NCBI GenBank assembly: GCA_947581795.1
Contig: CANPVS010000005.1
Location: 1-64,000 of the forward strand
Origin: an uncultured Oscillospiraceae bacterium
GTDB lineage: Bacteria; Bacillota; Clostridia; Oscillospirales; Oscillospiraceae
DNA: 64,000 nt
Reading direction: 5' to 3'
A program made the position numbers and the translations under genes. Below are positions 30,167-41,757 of the stretch, in pieces. Numbering within the stretch: position 1 is the first letter of the stretch; each line of letters begins with the position of its first letter. A model generated the notes under the pieces. That model saw only the letters and a program-made list of their open reading frames with translations. It made no database searches and was not told where the DNA came from.

Positions 30167-30195
30167 TTGACATTGGATGCCAGGTCTGATAACAT
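30167..30195 (+). promoter_or_regulatory. promoter of the ABC exporter operon
   Basis: TTGACA (30167-30172), a 17-base spacer and TAACAT (30190-30195). The palindrome CAACATGTTG (30160-30169) overlaps the -35 box and could be a repressor site. Confidence 0.7.
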
Positions 30196-30245
30196 ATTTT
30201 AGCTTATTTAGTATATGTATCTATGGAAAGGAGCCCTTTGACCGG

Positions 30246-31991
30246 ATGCGACAGATCCTGACAGGATATTGGGGAAAGTACAAAAACTCGCTGATCCTGA
30301 CGCCCATATTCGTGCTTCTGGAGACAGTGGTGACCCTGGCGCTGCCCACGCTCATGTCCAACATCGTGGACGTCGGCGTGGCGAATGGAGACAAGAGCTA
30401 CATCATCGTCTGCGGCCTTTTGATGACGGCTCTGGCCCTGGTGAGCGTCACGGCGGGTTTTATCAGCACATGGAACGCCTCCCGGGCCGCCAATGGCTTT
30501 GGCTCCAATCTGCGCCAGGCCATGTACCGGCATATCCAGGAGTTCTCCTTCGCGGACATCGACAAGTTCTCCACGGCCAGCCTCATCACCCGCACCACCA
30601 GCGACGTGCGCCAGCTCCAGACAGCCGTGCAGATGATGCTGCGCACCTTCATCCAGGCGCCCTTCCAGCTGCTGGTGGCCATGACCATCGTCATCACCTA
30701 CTCCTGGCGTCTGGCCCTCATCTACATGGTGGCGGTGCCCGTGCTGTTCGTCGGCGTCATCACGGTGATGACCTTTGTGGATAAGCTCTTTATCCTGGTG
30801 CAGCAGAAGCTGGACGCCATGAACGCGGACATCCAGGAGAACCTGATCGCCATCCGGGTGGTGAAGGCCTTCGTCCGCCAGCGGTACGAAAAGGAGAAGT
30901 TCAAAAAAGCCAACGACGAGCTCACCCGCTCCAACCTGCGGGCCGTGGGTGTCATCATCGCCATGAGCCCCCTGGCCACCATCGTGCTGAACGCGATGAC
31001 CCTGTGCATCTACTGGTTCGGCGGCCGCATGGTGGCCAACGGCACCATCGCCTCCGGCCAGCTTCTCGCGGTCATCAGCTACCTCAATCAGATCATGATG
31101 AGCGTGATGATGTTCTCCATGGTCCTCATGCAGTACACCCGCTCCCGGGCCTGCGGCAAGCGGGTGGCGGAGGTTCTGAACGCCCAGCCGGATATCCAGG
31201 ATAAGCCGGAGGCCAAGCCCCACCCCATCGCCCAGGACCACGGCTCCGTAGAATTTCAGAACGTGTCCTTCCGCTACTCCCACGCCGGCACCGGCGAGGA
31301 CGTGCTGAAGAACATCACCTTCTCCGCCCAGCCCGGCCAGACCGTGGCCATCGTGGGCGGCACCGGCTCCGGCAAATCCAGCCTCGTGAATCTCATCCCC
31401 CGGTTCTACGACGTGACCGAGGGGGCAGTGCTGGTGGACGGTACGGACGTGCGGGACTACCGGATAGAGGATCTGCGGGACGGCATCGGCATGGTGCTGC
31501 AAAACAACGTCCTCTTCTCCGGCACCATCCGGGAGAACATCGCCTGGGGCGACGAGAACGCCACAGACGAGCAGATCATCACCGCCCTCAAAAACGCCCA
31601 GGCCTGGGACTTCGTCTCCCAGATGCCCGAGGGGCTGGACACCATGATCCTCCAGGGCGGCACCAATGTCTCCGGCGGCCAGAAGCAGCGGCTGTGTATC
31701 GCCCGGGCCATGCTGAAAAAGCCGGCCATCCTCATCCTGGATGACTCCACCAGCGCGGTGGACTCCGACACGGAGGGCCGCATCCGGGAAAGCTTTGACC
31801 GGGAGCTCAAAAACACCACTGTGTTCATCATCGCCCAGCGCATCTCCTCCGTGGTTGGCGCGGACAAGATCGTTGTCCTGGACGAGGGCCGGGTGGAGAG
31901 CGTGGGCACCCATGACGAGCTCATGGGCTCCAGCCCCATCTATCGGGATATCTACACTTCACAGGTAGAGGAGGCGCTTTCCAATGGCTAA
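30246..31991 (+). CDS. heterodimeric ABC exporter, subunit with degenerate ATP site
   Basis: A 581-residue half-transporter: six membrane helices (about 1-320) and an ATPase domain. Walker [10 protein letters not shown] (371-379) and signature SGGQKQRL are normal, but the catalytic Glu after Walker B is Asp (D500, [11 protein letters not shown]) and the switch His is Gln (Q531, IIAQRIS). This is the degenerate partner pattern of heterodimeric exporters such as TM287/288, BmrCD and TmrAB. It pumps unknown hydrophobic or peptide substrates outward. ATG 30246 has AAAGGAG about 12 bases ahead. It overlaps the second subunit gene by 8 bases. Confidence 0.92.
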
Positions 31992-33969
31992 GAAGCAAAG
32001 CATTTGGTCCCAGCTGAAAGCGCGCCTGGCCGTGGACAGCGTGGATGTGAACGACGAGAAGATCTATAAGAACCTCCACGGCGGCCCCGGCGGCGGCCGG
32101 GATTTCCGCAAGCCAAAAGACGCCAAGGGCACCCTTATGCGGGTGCTGGGCTACGCCGGGAAGAACAAGGCCCTGTTCGTCCTGGTGCTGGTGATGATGC
32201 TCATCTCCACCGGCTGCTCTCTCGCGGCCAGCTATTATCTGCGTCCCCTCATCGACGACTACATCGTGCCCCTCATCACCAGCCCGGAGAAGGACTTTTC
32301 CGCCCTGGCGCGGCAGCTTGGCATCCTTGCCAGCATATACCTTGCCAGCGCCGTGGCCACCTACTTCACCTCCCGCACCTGCATGACCCTGGCCCAGTGG
32401 GCCACCAACGCCCTGCGCCGGGACCTGTTCGCCGCGCTGCAGGAGCTTCCCATCACCTTCTTTGACGAGCACACCCACGGCGAGCTCATGAGCCGGTTCA
32501 CCAACGACGCGGACAACGTGCAGATGTGTCTGGAACAGGGCATCGTCCAGTTCCTCTCCGGCATCATCACCTTCGTGGGCACCGTGGCGCTGATGATCAG
32601 CCTGAGCTGGAAGCTGTTCCTCATCACCCTTCTCACCATTGGCCTCTCCTTCCTGCTGGTGAAGGGCGTGGGCCGGTACTCCCGCATCCTCTTCAAAAAG
32701 CAGCAGTCCTCCCTGGGCGCGCTGAACGGCTATATCGAGGAGATGCTGGACGGGCTCAAGGTGGTCAAGGCCTTCAACTACGAGGACCGGGCCAAGAAGG
32801 GCTTCGAGGACCTGAACGACGAGTACCGGGAAAACGCCATCTTCGCCAACTTCCTGGGCTCCATCATCTTCCCCACCATGAACGCCGTCATGAACGTGTG
32901 CTACGCGGTCACCGCCGTACTGGGCGGGTTTATGACCCTGGCAGGTTCCTTCACCATCGGCTCTCTGGGCGTGTACTTGAACTACATCCGCCAGGTGACC
33001 ATGCCCATCAACATGATGTCGAACCAGGCCATCAACCTGTTCTCCGCCATCGCCGGCGCGGAGCGCATCTTCGCGGTCATTGACCACGAGCCGGAGCCGG
33101 ACGAGGGCAACGTGACACTGGTCACCGTGGACCGGGCCGCGGACGGCACCCTCACCGAGACGGGCCACGGTGAGCGCACCGGCTTCTGGGCCTGGAAGAT
33201 CCCCCAGGCCGGCGGCTCCTACGAGTTCCGGGAAGTAAAGGGCGGCGTCCGGCTGGAGAATGTGAACTTCTCCTATGTACCGGGAAAGCCGGTCCTCAAA
33301 GACTTCACCGTCTGGGCGGACCCGGGCCAGAAGATTGCCTTTGTGGGCTCCACCGGCGCGGGCAAGACCACCGTCACCAACCTCATCAACCGCTTTTACG
33401 AGATCGACGGCGGCCGCATCCTCTTTGACGGCATCGACGTGAAGGACATCAAGAAGGCGGGCCTGCGGCGGAGCCTGGGCATCGTCCTGCAGGACACCAA
33501 CCTCTTCACCGGCACGGTCATGGACAACATCCGCTACGGCAAGCTGGACGCCACGGATGAGGAGTGCGTCGCCGCGGCGAAGGCCGCCAACGCCCACGGG
33601 TTCATCTCCCGCCTGCCGGACGGGTATCAGACCATGATCACCGGCAACGGCCAGAACCTGTCCCAGGGCCAGCGGCAGCTTCTCGCCATCGCCCGCACCG
33701 CCGTGGCCCGGCACCCGGTGATGATCCTGGACGAGGCCACCAGCTCCATCGATACCCGCACGGAAAAGCTCATCGACAAGGGCATGGACGCCCTCATGGA
33801 GGGCCGGACCGTGTTCGTTATCGCCCACCGCCTCTCCACTGTCCGCAACGCCAAGGCCATCGTGGTCATCGAGCACGGCCAGATCGTGGAGCGGGGCAGC
33901 CACGAGGACCTTCTGGAACAGAAAGGCCGGTACTACATGCTTTACACCGGCCAGAGCGAGTTGGACTGA
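31984..33969 (+). CDS. heterodimeric ABC exporter, catalytic subunit
   Basis: A 661-residue half-transporter with an N-terminal extension (~1-50), six membrane helices and an ATPase domain. Walker [10 protein letters not shown], the catalytic Glu (E584, [11 protein letters not shown]) and switch His (H615, VIAHRLST) are canonical, while its signature is LSQGQ (559-563) instead of LSGGQ. Combined with its partner this gives one functional and one degenerate ATP site. An insert of about 45 residues before the ATPase domain carries [13 protein letters not shown]. The stop lies one base before the next gene, so the exporter leads a longer operon. Confidence 0.93.
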
Positions 33970-36384: not shown

Positions 36385-38934
36385 ATGAAGAAACTGGCCA
36401 TCGGCATACTGGCCCACGTAGACGCGGGCAAGACCACCCTCTCCGAAGGGATGCTCTATTTGGCGGGCAAAATCAAGAAGCTGGGCCGGGTGGACCACCG
36501 GGACACTTACCTGGATACCCACGACCTGGAGCGCGCCCGGGGCATCACCATCTTCTCCAAACAGGCGGTATTCACCGCCGGGGAAACCGAGATCACCCTC
36601 CTGGATACCCCCGGTCACGTGGATTTCTCCCCGGAGGCAGAGAGGGTGCTCCAGGTGCTGGATTACGCCATCATGGTGGTGAGCGGCACCGGCGGCGTCC
36701 AGGCCCACACCGAGACCCTGTGGACCCTTTTGCAGCGCTATAGGGTCCCCACCTTCGTCTTCGTCACCAAGATGGACGTGAACGGCACGGACAAGGCCAG
36801 GCTCATGGCCGACATCCACGCCCGCCTGGGCGAGAATTGCGTGGATTTCGCCCCGGACAACGCCGGACGTGACGAGGCGATCGCCATGCTGGACGAGGCG
36901 GCTCTGGATAAGTACATGGACTTCGGCGCTCTCTCCGACGAGGAGATCATCCGCCTTGTCCGGGAGCGGAAGCTGCACCCCTGCTTTTTCGGCTCCGGGC
37001 TGAAGCTGGACGGCGTGGAGGAATTTCTCGCCGCCCTGGAGCGTTATACCGCCGTCCCCGCCTGGCCCGCGCCCTTCGGGGCCCGGGTTTACAAGATCGG
37101 CCGGGACGCCCAGGGAAATCGCCTTACCTACCTGAAGGTCACCGGCGGTACCCTCGCCGTCCGGGCCCCCATCCGGTATCTGCCCCTGCGGGGCTCGGAG
37201 CCGGTGGAGGAAAAAATAAGCCAGATATGCCTCTACTCCGGGGTGAAGTACGACACCGCCGACATGGTGCCCGCGGGGCAGGTCTGCGCCGTCACAGGAC
37301 TCACCAAAACCTGGCCGGGCCAGGGTCTTGGCGCGGAGCCGGACGGTGACGAGCCCTACCTCACCCCCGCCATGGGCTACCGTATCCGCCTGCCCAAAGG
37401 CTGCGACGCCCGGACCATGCTGCCGAAGCTGAAACTGTTGGAGGAGGAAGAGCCTCAGCTGCACATCCTCTGGCAGGAGACGTTGGGGGAGATACACGTC
37501 CAGCTCATGGGCGCGGTGCAGATAGAGATACTGAAGAGCCTCATTAAGGACCGCTTCGACGTGGACGTGGAGATCGACGCAGGCCGGGTCCTCTACCGGG
37601 AGACCATCGCGAGCACCGTGGAGGGCGTGGGCCATTTTGAGCCCCTGCGCCACTATGCGGAGGTGCATCTGCTGCTGGAGCCGGGCGAGCCGGGCAGCGG
37701 CATCGTGCTGGACACAGTTTGCTCCGAGGATGTGCTGGACCGGAACTGGCAGCGGCTCATCCTCACCCATCTGGAGGAGAAGCAGCACCTGGGCGTGCTC
37801 ACCGGCTCCCCCCTCACCGACGTGAAGATCACCCTCCTGGCCGGCCGGGCCCACTTAAAGCACACCGAGGGCGGCGACTTCCGCCAGGCCACCTACCGGG
37901 CCGTGCGCCAGGGGCTCATGCAGGCCGAGAGCGTGCTCTTAGAGCCCTATTACGCCTTCCGCCTCACTGTGCCCGCCGAGCAGATCGGCCGGGCCATCAC
38001 CGACGTGCGGGCCATGGGCGGGACCCACGACAGCCCTGTGACCGAGGGAGCGGACATGGTCCTCACCGGGGCCGCGCCCGTGGCCGCCATGGGCGATTAC
38101 GCCGCCCAAGTGGCCGCCTATACCGGCGGCCGGGGCCGGTTCTCCTGCCACGTGGAGGGCTATCGTCCCTGCCACGACGCCGACGCGGTGATAGAGGCCA
38201 TTGGCTATGACCCTGAGGCGGACCTGGAAAACACCCCCGACAGCGTCTTCTGCGCCCACGGGGCAGGCTTCACGGTGAAGTGGGACAAGGTGCCGGAGTA
38301 TATGCACCTGGACAGCGGCCTCAAAGACCCGGCAGCCCCCGAAGACCTGGAGCCCACCGTCCAGCGGCAGAATCTCAACATTGACGACAAGGAGCTGGAG
38401 GCCATCATGCTCCGGGAGTTCGGCCCCATCCGCCGGAAGCAATACGCCGCCCCCCAGATCAACAGCGCCGTGGGCATCCAGATGCAGGTCCGGAAGGACC
38501 ACGAGCACATCATCGTGGACGGCTACAACGTGATCTTCGCCTGGGATGAGCTGAAGGCGCTGGCGGCGGAGAGTTTGGACATGGCCCGGTCCCGGCTTCT
38601 GGACATGCTGGCCAACTACCAAGGCTACACCAAGAGCGACCTGGTGGTGGTCTTCGACGCCTACAAGGTCCCCGGCGGCCAAGGCAGCCGGGTCACTCAC
38701 GGCAACCTCCGGGTGGCCTACACCAGGGAGGGCGAGACGGCGGACATGTATATCGAGCGGCTGGTGGACGAGATCGGCAAGAACGAGACCGTCCGGGTGG
38801 TCACCTCCGACCGGATGGTCCAGGTGGGCGCCCTCCGCTCCGGGGTGCTGCGCTGCTCCTCGGGAGAGTTCAAGACCGAAGTGGAATGGGTCCTGGAGCA
38901 GATATCCGACGCGGTGAAAAGGTCGCAGTTTTGA
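36385..38934 (+). CDS. TetM/EF-G-like translational GTPase fused to a YacP/Rae1-like NYN nuclease
   Basis: An 849-residue fusion. Residues 1-~640 follow a Tet(M)/Tet(O)-type ribosomal protection protein: P-loop HVDAGKTT (11-18), RGIT (52-55), DTPGH (74-78), TKMD in place of NKxD (128-131), then domains II-V. The domain-IV loop that in Tet(M) displaces tetracycline (Y-S-P) is replaced by HLKHT (490-494), so tetracycline resistance should not be assumed. Residues ~706-849 are an NYN/PIN-like domain with candidate metal ligands D712 (IVDGYN), D758, D787/E791 and D809, as in YacP (Rae1), which in Bacillus cuts mRNA in the ribosomal A site. ATG 36385 has GGAAAGG ahead; residues upstream in frame lack homology. 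Function is inferred. Confidence 0.88.
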   Translation: MKKLAIGILAHVDAGKTTLSEGMLYLAGKIKKLGRVDHRDTYLDTHDLERARGITIFSKQAVFTAGETEITLLDTPGHVDFSPEAERVLQVLDYAIMVVSGTGGVQAHTETLWTLLQRYRVPTFVFVTKMDVNGTDKARLMADIHARLGENCVDFAPDNAGRDEAIAMLDEAALDKYMDFGALSDEEIIRLVRERKLHPCFFGSGLKLDGVEEFLAALERYTAVPAWPAPFGARVYKIGRDAQGNRLTYLKVTGGTLAVRAPIRYLPLRGSEPVEEKISQICLYSGVKYDTADMVPAGQVCAVTGLTKTWPGQGLGAEPDGDEPYLTPAMGYRIRLPKGCDARTMLPKLKLLEEEEPQLHILWQETLGEIHVQLMGAVQIEILKSLIKDRFDVDVEIDAGRVLYRETIASTVEGVGHFEPLRHYAEVHLLLEPGEPGSGIVLDTVCSEDVLDRNWQRLILTHLEEKQHLGVLTGSPLTDVKITLLAGRAHLKHTEGGDFRQATYRAVRQGLMQAESVLLEPYYAFRLTVPAEQIGRAITDVRAMGGTHDSPVTEGADMVLTGAAPVAAMGDYAAQVAAYTGGRGRFSCHVEGYRPCHDADAVIEAIGYDPEADLENTPDSVFCAHGAGFTVKWDKVPEYMHLDSGLKDPAAPEDLEPTVQRQNLNIDDKELEAIMLREFGPIRRKQYAAPQINSAVGIQMQVRKDHEHIIVDGYNVIFAWDELKALAAESLDMARSRLLDMLANYQGYTKSDLVVVFDAYKVPGGQGSRVTHGNLRVAYTREGETADMYIERLVDEIGKNETVRVVTSDRMVQVGALRSGVLRCSSGEFKTEVEWVLEQISDAVKRSQF

Positions 38935-38954: not shown

Positions 38955-39812
38955 ATGCGTATCATCGACACCTATTCAGACATCCCCGCGGTCTATGAAA
39001 ACGGCGCGTTTTCCCTTGACCGCTGGCGGGATTATATCGACGCCGCCATCCCCGGTCTGCGGCCCCTGCTGGAATCAGACAAGAATGAAATGTTGGCCGG
39101 GGACGGTGTTGACTGGGAGAAGGACTTTCTTCCCGTTTTGAACGCTCTGCCCGAAAAAGCGGACCGCTGCCGGGCCGCCCACGACTGCTTTCTACGCGTC
39201 ACAGAAGGGCTGGACACAGCCATCCTGGACAAGTTCGGCAAGGGGCTGGACGTAGATATCTATTTCTATCTTGGTCTTTGCAACGGCGCCGGCTGGGTCA
39301 CGTCTCTGAACGGGCGAACGGTCGTCCTGCTGGGGCTGGAAAAGATCGTAGAGCTGGACTGGTGCGGACAGGACGATATGCGGGGCCTCATCTGGCACGA
39401 ACTGGGTCACGTCTACCAGGCCCAGTACGGCGTGCTGGAGCGGAGCTTTGACTGCCCCGCCGACAGGTTTCTCTGGCAGCTCTTCACCGAGGGCGTCGCC
39501 ATGGTCTTCGAGCAGACCCTGGCGGAGGACGACGGATACTACCACCAGGACAAAAACGGCTGGAAGGCTTGGTGCGACGGCCATTTTGAGGCTATCAAGG
39601 CAGATTTTCTCCGGGATCTGGATACCATGACCCCTGCCGGCCAGCGCTGGTTCGGCGACTGGGTACGCTATCAGGGCCACGGGGATGTGGGCTACTTCCT
39701 GGGCAGCCGGTTCGTGCGGTATATCCTTTCCCTGTACCCCCTGGACGAGATCATATCCTTTGATATCGGCGACGTGAAGCGCCTGTACGACCTATTTATG
39801 GACCATGGATAA
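38955..39812 (+). CDS. predicted zinc metallopeptidase-like protein (HExxH)
   Basis: A 285-residue protein carrying IWHELGHVYQ (H148, E149, H152), a classic zinc-binding HExxH helix. A downstream acidic candidate for the third ligand lies in FTEGVAMVFEQ. It resembles DUF2268-type predicted Zn proteases. I see no signal peptide or membrane helix, so it is probably cytoplasmic. GAGGTG precedes the ATG, and its 3' end overlaps ylmH by 8 bases. Substrate unknown. Confidence 0.68.
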   Translation: MRIIDTYSDIPAVYENGAFSLDRWRDYIDAAIPGLRPLLESDKNEMLAGDGVDWEKDFLPVLNALPEKADRCRAAHDCFLRVTEGLDTAILDKFGKGLDVDIYFYLGLCNGAGWVTSLNGRTVVLLGLEKIVELDWCGQDDMRGLIWHELGHVYQAQYGVLERSFDCPADRFLWQLFTEGVAMVFEQTLAEDDGYYHQDKNGWKAWCDGHFEAIKADFLRDLDTMTPAGQRWFGDWVRYQGHGDVGYFLGSRFVRYILSLYPLDEIISFDIGDVKRLYDLFMDHG

Positions 39813-40551
39813 AGATCTGGAAAAGCGTATAGAGGAATTATCCGCCCGGTGCGAGAGGAACAGCGTCGTGACCTCCACCGGCTTTCTCACTATGGCCGAG
39901 CAGATGGAGGTCTCCGCCTGGGCCAATCGGCTGACCGACGTAGCGCTCCACCTGGACGGCGGGGACGAGCTCTGCGAGCGCAAGTGCGCCTTTTTTCTCC
40001 CCTACTGGATGGAGGAAGCGGACTTCGACCCAGCCGAATACATCCACGCCGTGAAAGCCACGGCCTTTTTCGGCACACCCTCCCACCGGGACTATATGGG
40101 CGCGGCGCTGGCTCTGGGCATCCGCCGGGAGTGGATCGGCGACTTCCGGGTGGTGGATGACGCGGCCTATATCTTCTGTCTGCCCACCGTAGAAAAGCTC
40201 CTCACCGACGAGCTTACCCAGGCCGGGCGGGTGAGCCTTAAAACGGCCTCCATCCCCCTCTCGGAGGTGCCAAAGCCGGAGCGGAAGGTGAAAAAGCTCA
40301 CCTTCACGGTGAAGAGCCTGCGCCTGGACGCGGTGGCGGGCGGCATGTTCGGCCTGTCCCGCACCGCCGCGTCGGAGCTCATCCGGGCCGGGGCGGCGAC
40401 GCTTAACTATGTCCAATGCTTACACGTGGACGCGCCCATCCACGAGGGGGACGTGATCTCCCTCCGGGGCTGGGGCAAGGGCGCGGTCACCTCCTTGGGC
40501 GGCCAGTCGAGAAAAGACAGGACGTTTTTGGAAGCGGAGATATATCTGTGA
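39805..40551 (+). CDS. ylmH: YlmH-like S4-domain RNA-binding protein
   Basis: A 248-residue protein. The N-terminal ~170 residues form the YlmH domain (YWMEEADFDPAEYIHAVKA). The C-terminal S4 domain (about 178-240) is LDAVAGGMFGLSRTAASELI. Bacillus YlmH (RqcP2-related) works in ribosome-associated quality control by binding split 50S-peptidyl-tRNA complexes, and in many Firmicutes the gene lies in the division cluster. Here it is instead the last gene of the GTPase-nuclease operon, which fits a ribosome-rescue theme. Confidence 0.88.
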   Translation: MDKDLEKRIEELSARCERNSVVTSTGFLTMAEQMEVSAWANRLTDVALHLDGGDELCERKCAFFLPYWMEEADFDPAEYIHAVKATAFFGTPSHRDYMGAALALGIRREWIGDFRVVDDAAYIFCLPTVEKLLTDELTQAGRVSLKTASIPLSEVPKPERKVKKLTFTVKSLRLDAVAGGMFGLSRTAASELIRAGAATLNYVQCLHVDAPIHEGDVISLRGWGKGAVTSLGGQSRKDRTFLEAEIYL

Positions 40552-40553
40552 GT

Positions 40554-40682
40554 TCTCTCCCCCAGTCTCGCTTACGCTCGACAGCCCCCTCGTCAGAGGG
40601 GGCCTATTTTGTGTTGGATATTAAATAAGCCTCCCTCTGACGAGGGAGGTGGCTCCGGCGTGAGCCGGAGACGGAGGGAGAG
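40554..40682. repeat. pair of inverted CTCCCxCxGTCTC...GAGGG repeat arms
   Basis: Arm 1 (about 40554-40603) and arm 2 (about 40627-40682) are inverted copies of each other with small indels. Each contains its own hairpin, CCCCCTCGTCAGAGGGGG and CCTCCCTCTGACGAGGGAGG. A short AT-rich loop separates them. The form is that of dispersed, possibly mobile intergenic repeats seen in gut Clostridia. It lies between ylmH and spoVAD and may also act as a terminator for the upstream operon. Confidence 0.7.
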
Positions 40683-40703
40683 ATATTTGTCTCTCCTTTT
40701 GTT

Positions 40704-40732
40704 GTATTTTTTTGCTTTTCCCGCGCACAATA
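40704..40732 (+). promoter_or_regulatory. candidate sigma-G promoter of spoVAD
   Basis: GTATT (40704-40708), 17 bases and CACAATA (40726-40732) resemble the sigma-G/F consensus. The -10 element ends five bases before the ATG at 40738, so the transcript would be nearly leaderless. This is a match by eye only. Confidence 0.35.
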
Positions 40733-40737
40733 GCACC

Positions 40738-41757
40738 ATGGAAACGAAACGAATGGGTAAACAGACCGTCCACCTCACTTTGCAGCCCGGCGTGGCCGCG
40801 GCGGCGTGCGTGGGCGGCAAGAAAGAGAGCGAGGGCCCTCTGCGCAAATACTTCGACTACCTGAGCGAGGACTCCCGCTTCGGCGCCAAGAGCTGGGAGA
40901 AGGCGGAGAGCGCCATGCTCAAAATGTGCTGGTCCATCGCCTGCGACAAAGCTAAGACAAGCCCCAGCGACGTGGAATACGTCTTCTCCGGCGACCTTCT
41001 CAATCAGTGCGCCGGTTCCGCCTATGCCATGCGGGAGTGCGGTGTGCCCTACTTCGGCCTGTACGGCGCCTGCTCCACCATGGCGGAGGGGCTTTCCCTG
41101 GCCGCCATGATAATCGACGGGGGCTTTTGCTCCACCGCCGCCGCGGCCACCAGCTCCCACTTCTGCTCCGCCGAGCGGCAATACCGCTTCCCCCTGCAGT
41201 ACGGCTGCCAGCGGCCGCCCACCAGCCAGTGGACTGTCACCGGCGCGGGGGCACTGATCCTGAAAGCCGACGGCCCGGCACCCTATGTGACCCACATCAC
41301 CACCGGCGTGATAACCGACGCGGGCGTGACGGACATGAACAACATGGGCGCGGCCATGGCCCCGGCGGCCTATGAGACCTTGAAGGCCCACTTTGCCGAC
41401 ACAGGCCGGGACCCGGATTACTATGACGCCATCGTCACCGGGGACCTGGGCATCGTGGGCTCCCACATCCTGGCGGACCTGTTCTGGAAAGACGGGGTGG
41501 ACCTGGGCGTGCGGTATATGGACTGCGGCCGGCTCATCTACTCCTCCAACGGCCAGGACACCCATTCCGGTGGCTCCGGGTGCGGGTGCTCCGCGTCGGT
41601 GCTCTGCGGCCACCTGCTCCACGGGATGCTGGAGCACAACTGGAACCGGCTCCTGTTCGCCGCCACCGGGGCCATGATGAGCCCCACCACCAACCAGCAG
41701 GGCGAGAGCATCCCCGCCATCTGCCACGCGGTGGCGCTGGAAAACACACGTTGTTGA
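40738..41757 (+). CDS. spoVAD: stage V sporulation protein AD
   Basis: A 339-residue thiolase-like-fold protein needed for dipicolinic acid uptake into the developing spore. Typical stretches are MGKQTVHL, DVEYVFSGDLLNQCAGSAYA, YGACSTMAEGLSLAAMIIDG and GSGCGCSASVLCGHLL. No ribosome binding site is visible before ATG 40738 or ATG 40753, unlike its neighbours. spoVAC, normally directly upstream, is absent: ylmH and a repeat element sit there. spoVAE follows. Confidence 0.93.
   Translation: METKRMGKQTVHLTLQPGVAAAACVGGKKESEGPLRKYFDYLSEDSRFGAKSWEKAESAMLKMCWSIACDKAKTSPSDVEYVFSGDLLNQCAGSAYAMRECGVPYFGLYGACSTMAEGLSLAAMIIDGGFCSTAAAATSSHFCSAERQYRFPLQYGCQRPPTSQWTVTGAGALILKADGPAPYVTHITTGVITDAGVTDMNNMGAAMAPAAYETLKAHFADTGRDPDYYDAIVTGDLGIVGSHILADLFWKDGVDLGVRYMDCGRLIYSSNGQDTHSGGSGCGCSASVLCGHLLHGMLEHNWNRLLFAATGAMMSPTTNQQGESIPAICHAVALENTRC

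Follow-up and report, generated by a model that had tools for sequence, protein, structure and literature searches.

The window (the whole 64,000-nucleotide stretch analysed here) carries at 36385..38934 on the plus strand a gene of 849 codons which, as judged from its sequence, encodes an EF-G-like translational GTPase joined via a linker to an NYN_YacP nuclease domain. Stop codons are absent throughout this interval, the translated product is 849 residues long and the protein matched its own genome at 1938 bits with no internal stop; the initial annotation had described a single uninterrupted GTPase-NYN frame, which the translation and the Pfam matches bear out. GGAAAGG precedes the ATG by 11 nt, and an in-frame GTG situated 42 nt upstream of the ATG is an alternative start. 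Promoter-like and terminator-like sites were predicted near the gene, and we place no weight on either; no regulatory RNA was found near it at gathering thresholds. The second gene downstream of the fusion, also on the plus strand, encodes a YlmH-like S4 protein (39805..40551; PF17774, 33.5 bits against a cut-off of 23), which is the sole YlmH_RBD match in the window's genome (84% complete). Between the two lies a plus-strand ORF with an HExxH motif (38955..39812, identified in ORF scans) that had no NCBIfam (1e-5) or Pfam (0.01) match and that may be an insertion, based on the presence of its homologues in only five of the best 80 of 208 related loci. Further features of the window are a downstream SpoVAD gene (40609-41757), which hints at a spore-forming lineage, and two adjacent ABC exporter genes (30177-33969), for which an MsbA-like model was the best match, below curated cut-offs.

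The EF-G/Tet-like GTPase part of the protein comprises residues 4-598. Its GTP-binding domain (Pfam GTP_EFTU, residues 4-222, 36394..37050 on the plus strand, 1.2e-45) contains the motifs AHVDAGKTT, DTPGH and TKMD, and each of the motif positions tested is conserved by between 78 and 80 of the best 80 of 208 related loci. EF-G domain IV (EFG_IV, residues 400-514, 37582..37926, plus strand) and domain V (EFG_C, residues 517-598, 37933..38178, plus strand) are both above their Pfam cut-offs. The G-domain motifs together with domains II-V place the protein in the EF-G superfamily, with the matches to domains II and III being sub-threshold (EF-G_D2, 15.4 bits, and EFG_III, 24.4 bits; cut-off 27 for each), and all 50 matches listed in a Foldseek search with the predicted structure were EF-G-type structures. 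Domain IV, which in EF-G and Tet(M) reaches into the A site, is the most conserved part of the protein (mean identity to the window of 0.85 in the best 80 of 208 related loci), and its loop III tip has the sequence HLKHTEGGDFR (residues 490-500, 37852..37884, plus strand). Domain V is followed by a family-specific extension (residues 599-645, ENTPDSVFCAHGAGF..W..V..YMH; 38179..38319, plus strand).

The NYN_YacP (Rae1-type) nuclease domain occupies residues 709-847 (38509..38925, plus strand) and scored 146.7 bits against a Pfam cut-off of 24.6. In a sequence search this C-terminal part matched the solved YacP structures 5mq9/5mq8 (3e-23), in an alignment which places the four acids D712, D758, D787 and D809, the expected active site (38518..38811, plus strand), on chain positions 7, 53, 81 and 104. 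None of these acids varies in the 40 fused loci compared (among which one genome is represented twice, as L053 and L071), in the best 120 of the 7975 nearest proteins listed and in all 27 separate NYN_YacP proteins. In a further set, the best 80 of 208 related loci, all four are present in 79, the exception being L168, a locus 96% identical to the window whose fusion ORF ends at 526 aa in the ORF list. The initial observation that all of the expected acidic positions are present was confirmed, and a check of the homologues for their loss found none wherever the frame reaches them. The match to the NYN_YacP profile stops at position 142 of 166, so that the C-terminal tail of Rae1 is missing from the window protein; most separate NYN_YacP proteins extend to 164-166, as do some fused ones (e.g., L052). 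Absence of the tail may indicate that ribosome binding is provided by the GTPase. In a tree of NYN domains the fused domains formed one group (100/99) with a single separate protein, L069, inside it, giving two label changes. As the genome that encodes L069 (G626) has an unfused sister GTPase located elsewhere, L069 is likely the product of fission of a fused gene, and its position inside the fused clade indicates that the nuclease may do without the GTPase.

An AlphaFold2 model built from a 75-row alignment had a mean pLDDT of 82.5 and a pTM of 0.63; both halves were mostly well modelled, and based on the pTM the relative placement of the two halves is not predicted. Residues 648-666 and 681-703 fall below pLDDT 50 and flank a short helix (residues 668-679). 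Across the best 80 of 208 related loci, mean identity to the window is low in the two floppy stretches (0.33 and 0.36) and reaches 0.83 in the helix (residues 667-681, DDKELEAIMLREFGP; 38383..38427, plus strand). In a wider set (n = 51) the conserved positions of the helix are E670 (49 loci), L671 (45), I674 (46), Y or F at 679 (50) and G680 (45). The model and these comparisons are consistent with an otherwise flexible linker that holds a conserved short helix.

Joining of two separate genes by a sequencing error, for which a check had been advised, can be ruled out based on the distribution of the long frame. NYN_YacP was found in 129 of 297 genomes of the order, and in 125 of these 129 the frame that holds the domain is 800 aa or longer. 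In the order and class counts "fused" denotes this frame length and "separate" a frame of no more than 230 aa; the GTPase half itself was confirmed by alignment in 50 loci with frames of more than 780 aa, in the best 80 of 208 related loci and in others. The four exceptions in the order are contig-edge or frame-broken cases: the fusion stops at a contig edge in G124, its two parts are in different frames in G209, and the frames of G154 (478 aa) and G282 (202 aa) begin at a contig end, as judged by coordinates only. Weak or partial rows (G160 on C81, G189 on C9) were omitted from the order counts. The remaining 168 genomes had no NYN_YacP match, and 19 of 20 such genomes examined also had no whole-protein match at 1e-60, with the other having a Tet-like match (30%). 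In the window's genome, at its 84% completeness, there is one NYN_YacP match, and the domain appears in the precomputed Pfam column of all of the best 120 of the 7975 nearest proteins listed. Record titles of the related loci support the earlier expectation that the architecture recurs in Oscillospiraceae, and, by the same titles, many of the fusion-bearing Clostridia are from animal-gut metagenomes.

Within the class, a survey of 254 genomes by frame length found 122 with only the long form, 124 with only the short form, one with both (G536) and seven that were unclear; rows of 21-27 bits (G598 twice, G660, G476, G449, G402) were omitted. Four of the unclear genomes were inspected: the halves are in different frames in G428 and G335, a single alignment spans residues 2-829 in G461 (listed open frame of 618 aa), and the NYN part alone is visible in G538. 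Long and separate NYN_YacP forms therefore rarely coexist in the class. As much of this may be due to shared descent, it supports replacement of one form by the other and not their independent exclusion. We rejected two further candidates. In G263, the frame of which is 1392-1405 aa long, an apparent additional domain lies ahead of the usual start and was interpreted as read-through. Carriage of the fusion by phages was suggested by two "Bacteriophage sp." scaffolds, L257 and L258, both of which are marked UNVERIFIED; L258 looks bacterial as it has genes for a UvrD helicase, FeoB and a tRNA synthetase, and of five ORFs scanned in L257 one had a Pfam match.

These observations bear on the possibility that the chain has two unconnected jobs, with the NYN domain acting as the house Rae1, the GTPase acting independently, and the fusion providing shared expression and tethering, with no control by GTP. 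This explanation would account for the low model confidence of the linker on both sides of its helix, for the likely fission in L069, and for the fact that the halves also exist as separate genes, which occur together in four of the 18 separate-NYN genomes that were examined. We nevertheless consider it somewhat unlikely; the good conservation of one linker helix between variable stretches and the presence of the long-frame form in nearly all NYN-bearing genomes of the order count against it.

The GTPase half had initially been described as Tet(M)-type, which proved to be too close an assignment. Loop III has the form HxKHTxGGDFR in 13 of 13 fused proteins aligned and in four of five unfused relatives (the one from Ligilactobacillus deviates), whereas all six Tet and Tet-like rows have YSPVSTPADFR. 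Replacement of the Tet(M) Y-S-P motif by HLKHT, as first noted, is borne out by this alignment with Tet(M/O/W/S), and residues H490, K492, H493 and T494 are kept in 80 of 80 loci (the best 80 of 208). Loop I also differs from that of Tet in all 13 aligned fused proteins, and the extension after domain V is common to the fused proteins and their unfused sister GTPases and absent from Tet(M/O/W/S). The best NCBIfam model, tet_protect, gave the window protein 394.7 bits, about half of its cut-off of 775; scores were similar for two unfused relatives (429.7 and 384.1) and a fused Monoglobus protein (397.1), and the Tet(M) control scored 879.8. In a 49-row tree of the GTPase half, 41 fused and unfused rows (100/100) were set apart from six Tet rows (100/100). 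The fused rows formed one group (91/97, not starred), again with two label changes, since one unfused Ligilactobacillus protein falls within it; its position suggests loss of the nuclease there, on a long branch. On these sequence grounds we assign the GTPase half to a family separate from Tet(M) that groups with unfused GTPases, in keeping with the doubt first expressed about a tetracycline-resistance label.

The two-part architecture has been in print since 2015, when it was reported in ten Clostridiales species, filed as "Tet" proteins, with resistance or cleavage of rRNA suggested as possible roles (Atkinson 2015, PMC4342817). The initial annotation knew of no described function; a possible resistance mechanism had been put forward in that paper, and a literature search, which covered few subscription papers and preprints, found no title on the function of the fusion. 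Relative to the available portion of the 2015 paper, the present analysis adds the non-Tet nature of the GTPase half, the rare coexistence with separate NYN_YacP, the linker helix and the linkage to YlmH (PMC4342817). The explanation suggested there, RNase-based resistance (PMC4342817), would have the GTPase free the A site of a drug or metabolite, with RNA cleavage by the NYN domain as a second resistance step. It fits the EF-G/Tet-like scaffold, the ranking of tet_protect as best NCBIfam model and the naming of relatives in databases as TetM/W/O/S family. An unfused relative so annotated (L083, 6001-7920), the Ligilactobacillus protein that falls within the fused clade, is on a Ligilactobacillus salivarius plasmid typed as mobilizable. 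However, loops III and I, the tet_protect score and the separate clade all argue against ribosome protection, and none of ten neighbouring ORFs scanned matched a resistance model at cut-off, with the qualifier that tet_ABC_46 models do match the two ABC exporters, at scores far short of the cut-off. We therefore regard this explanation as unlikely.

Among the best 80 of 208 relatives, taken from named genome contigs, the most frequent neighbour of the fusion is YlmH. It is near the fusion in 43 of these loci by tblastn and forms an open frame of at least 120 aa in 42, in all of which it is on the same strand. Twenty-nine of the 42 lie within -60 to +150 nt of the fusion, with spacings, by first possible start codon, of -14 in ten and -4 in three. 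The next most common neighbours in these loci were an ABC cluster (21, in mixed places) and GNAT and UDG (19 each); by tblastn, ABC, UDG, LPG-synthase, GNAT and SpoVAD neighbours were each found in 15-23 of the loci, and the UDG and GNAT rows listed are all from isolates labelled Lapin. No YlmH was found in a wider set of 54 loci, which includes four unfused ones. Room of at least 2500 nt is available downstream in 49 of the 54, as it is in 25 of the 38 unlinked loci among the best 80. No convincing conserved neighbour was found in these 54 loci, in which the largest clusters are shadow frames of the fusion gene and ABC transporters recur in 14. A FastTree phylogeny of 99 of 135 rows, from which unlinked loci with less than 2000 nt downstream, roughly half (by number) of the wider loci, the four unfused loci and frames of less than 700 aa had been dropped, grouped the linked loci into two clades, in which they make up 36 of 38 loci and 5 of 6, with five label changes, at least four of them on starred branches. 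One locus in this tree, L177, was scored as unlinked from an over-extended YlmH start, and tblastn places YlmH directly behind its fusion. The link to YlmH is therefore restricted to part of the family, and the related loci are not independent.

In Bacillus subtilis, YlmH binds 50S-peptidyl-tRNA complexes and can replace RqcP in RQC (PMC11317155); neither Rae1 nor TetM occurs in the main text of that paper. The window's genome also has matches for tmRNA, SmpB and an RqcH-type NFACT_N frame. The proposal of the initial annotation that the protein acts on stalled ribosomes gains support from the YlmH linkage, but only for the part of the family in which the linkage exists. A role in ribosome or tRNA maturation, in which the GTPase would check nearly finished ribosomes and the NYN domain trim rRNA or tRNA, as proposed for the NYN domain in a paper cited by Atkinson (PMC4342817), is quite improbable, because a core maturation step is unlikely to be absent from the 168 of 297 order genomes that lack NYN_YacP and because the YlmH link points to stalled complexes.

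Based on these considerations we tentatively propose, with somewhat less than even confidence, that the protein is a GTP-gated ribosome-docking factor that would direct Rae1-type cleavage to mRNA on stalled ribosomes and so feed rescue by tmRNA or RQC. In the first step, its GTP form would bind a ribosome with an empty A site, with domain IV probing the decoding centre, an expectation based on homology to EF-G and Tet. The nuclease, tethered on the predicted flexible linker, would then cleave the mRNA within the A site or beside it, probably upon departure of domain IV after GTP hydrolysis; as the A site cannot hold domain IV and the nuclease together, we favour action of the two in sequence, or cleavage immediately downstream of domain IV. 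After the cut, the ribosome would be open to tmRNA-SmpB and to splitting, with RqcH and YlmH acting next. Ribosome binding, control by GTP, mRNA as the substrate, the A site as the location and the hand-over to rescue are all points that we infer.

Several observations favour this GTP-gated reading: GTPase motifs and nuclease acids are co-conserved across the fused family, the fused rows fall together in both trees, the long frame is prevalent, the two forms rarely coexist, the linker helix is conserved, YlmH is linked to the fusion and has a role in RQC, rescue factors are present, and Rae1 has been described as a ribosomal A-site endoribonuclease (PMC6613710). Counted against it are the partial nature of the YlmH link, the missing Rae1 tail, the separate nuclease L069, the genome with both forms (G536), possible shared descent, and the lack of a predicted arrangement of the two halves in the model. 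A bolder version, that the protein is a one-chain, GTP-powered no-go-decay machine that senses the empty A site, cuts the mRNA with its own nuclease and starts RQC with YlmH and RqcH, is possible but more doubtful; in that case no translational GTPase would have been shown before to carry a functional RNase, and the fusion would represent Rae1 across an order of Clostridia. If the GTP-gated reading is true, a single all-in-one bacterial factor would recognise the stalled ribosome and cut the message, a step usually shared among several proteins, and would explain how Rae1 and other A-site nucleases locate their ribosomes. The tetracycline-resistance label would also be corrected for a protein found across Clostridia.

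The proteins most like the window protein are the clostridial "Tet" proteins of Atkinson 2015 (PMC4342817), which have the same two-part architecture, the difference being that they were filed as Tet there and the GTPase half belongs, by our assignment, to a separate family. The unfused GTPases of Bacillaceae and Clostridia, named "translation factor GTPase family" or "GTP-binding protein" in databases, form a sister family (43-46% identity) that shares the HxKHTxGGDFR loop and the C-terminal extension but has neither linker helix nor nuclease; several are on multi-megabase contigs. Tet(M) and Tet(O) share the EF-G-like domains, with 28-29% identity to Tet(M) over residues 1-593, and differ in loops III and I and the C-terminal extension, as well as in their clade and in the Tet cut-off that the window protein falls below. 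B. subtilis Rae1/YacP, a separate protein of about 170 aa, is similar to the window's nuclease in its NYN_YacP domain and four matching acids, whereas the window's nuclease is the C-terminus of a GTPase and lacks the Rae1 tail. In eukaryotes, no-go decay is carried out by Dom34-Hbs1 with an endonuclease; its domains are unrelated to those of the window protein and are on separate proteins, and the likeness, by analogy only, would be a GTPase-assisted action on stalled ribosomes that is coupled to mRNA cleavage.
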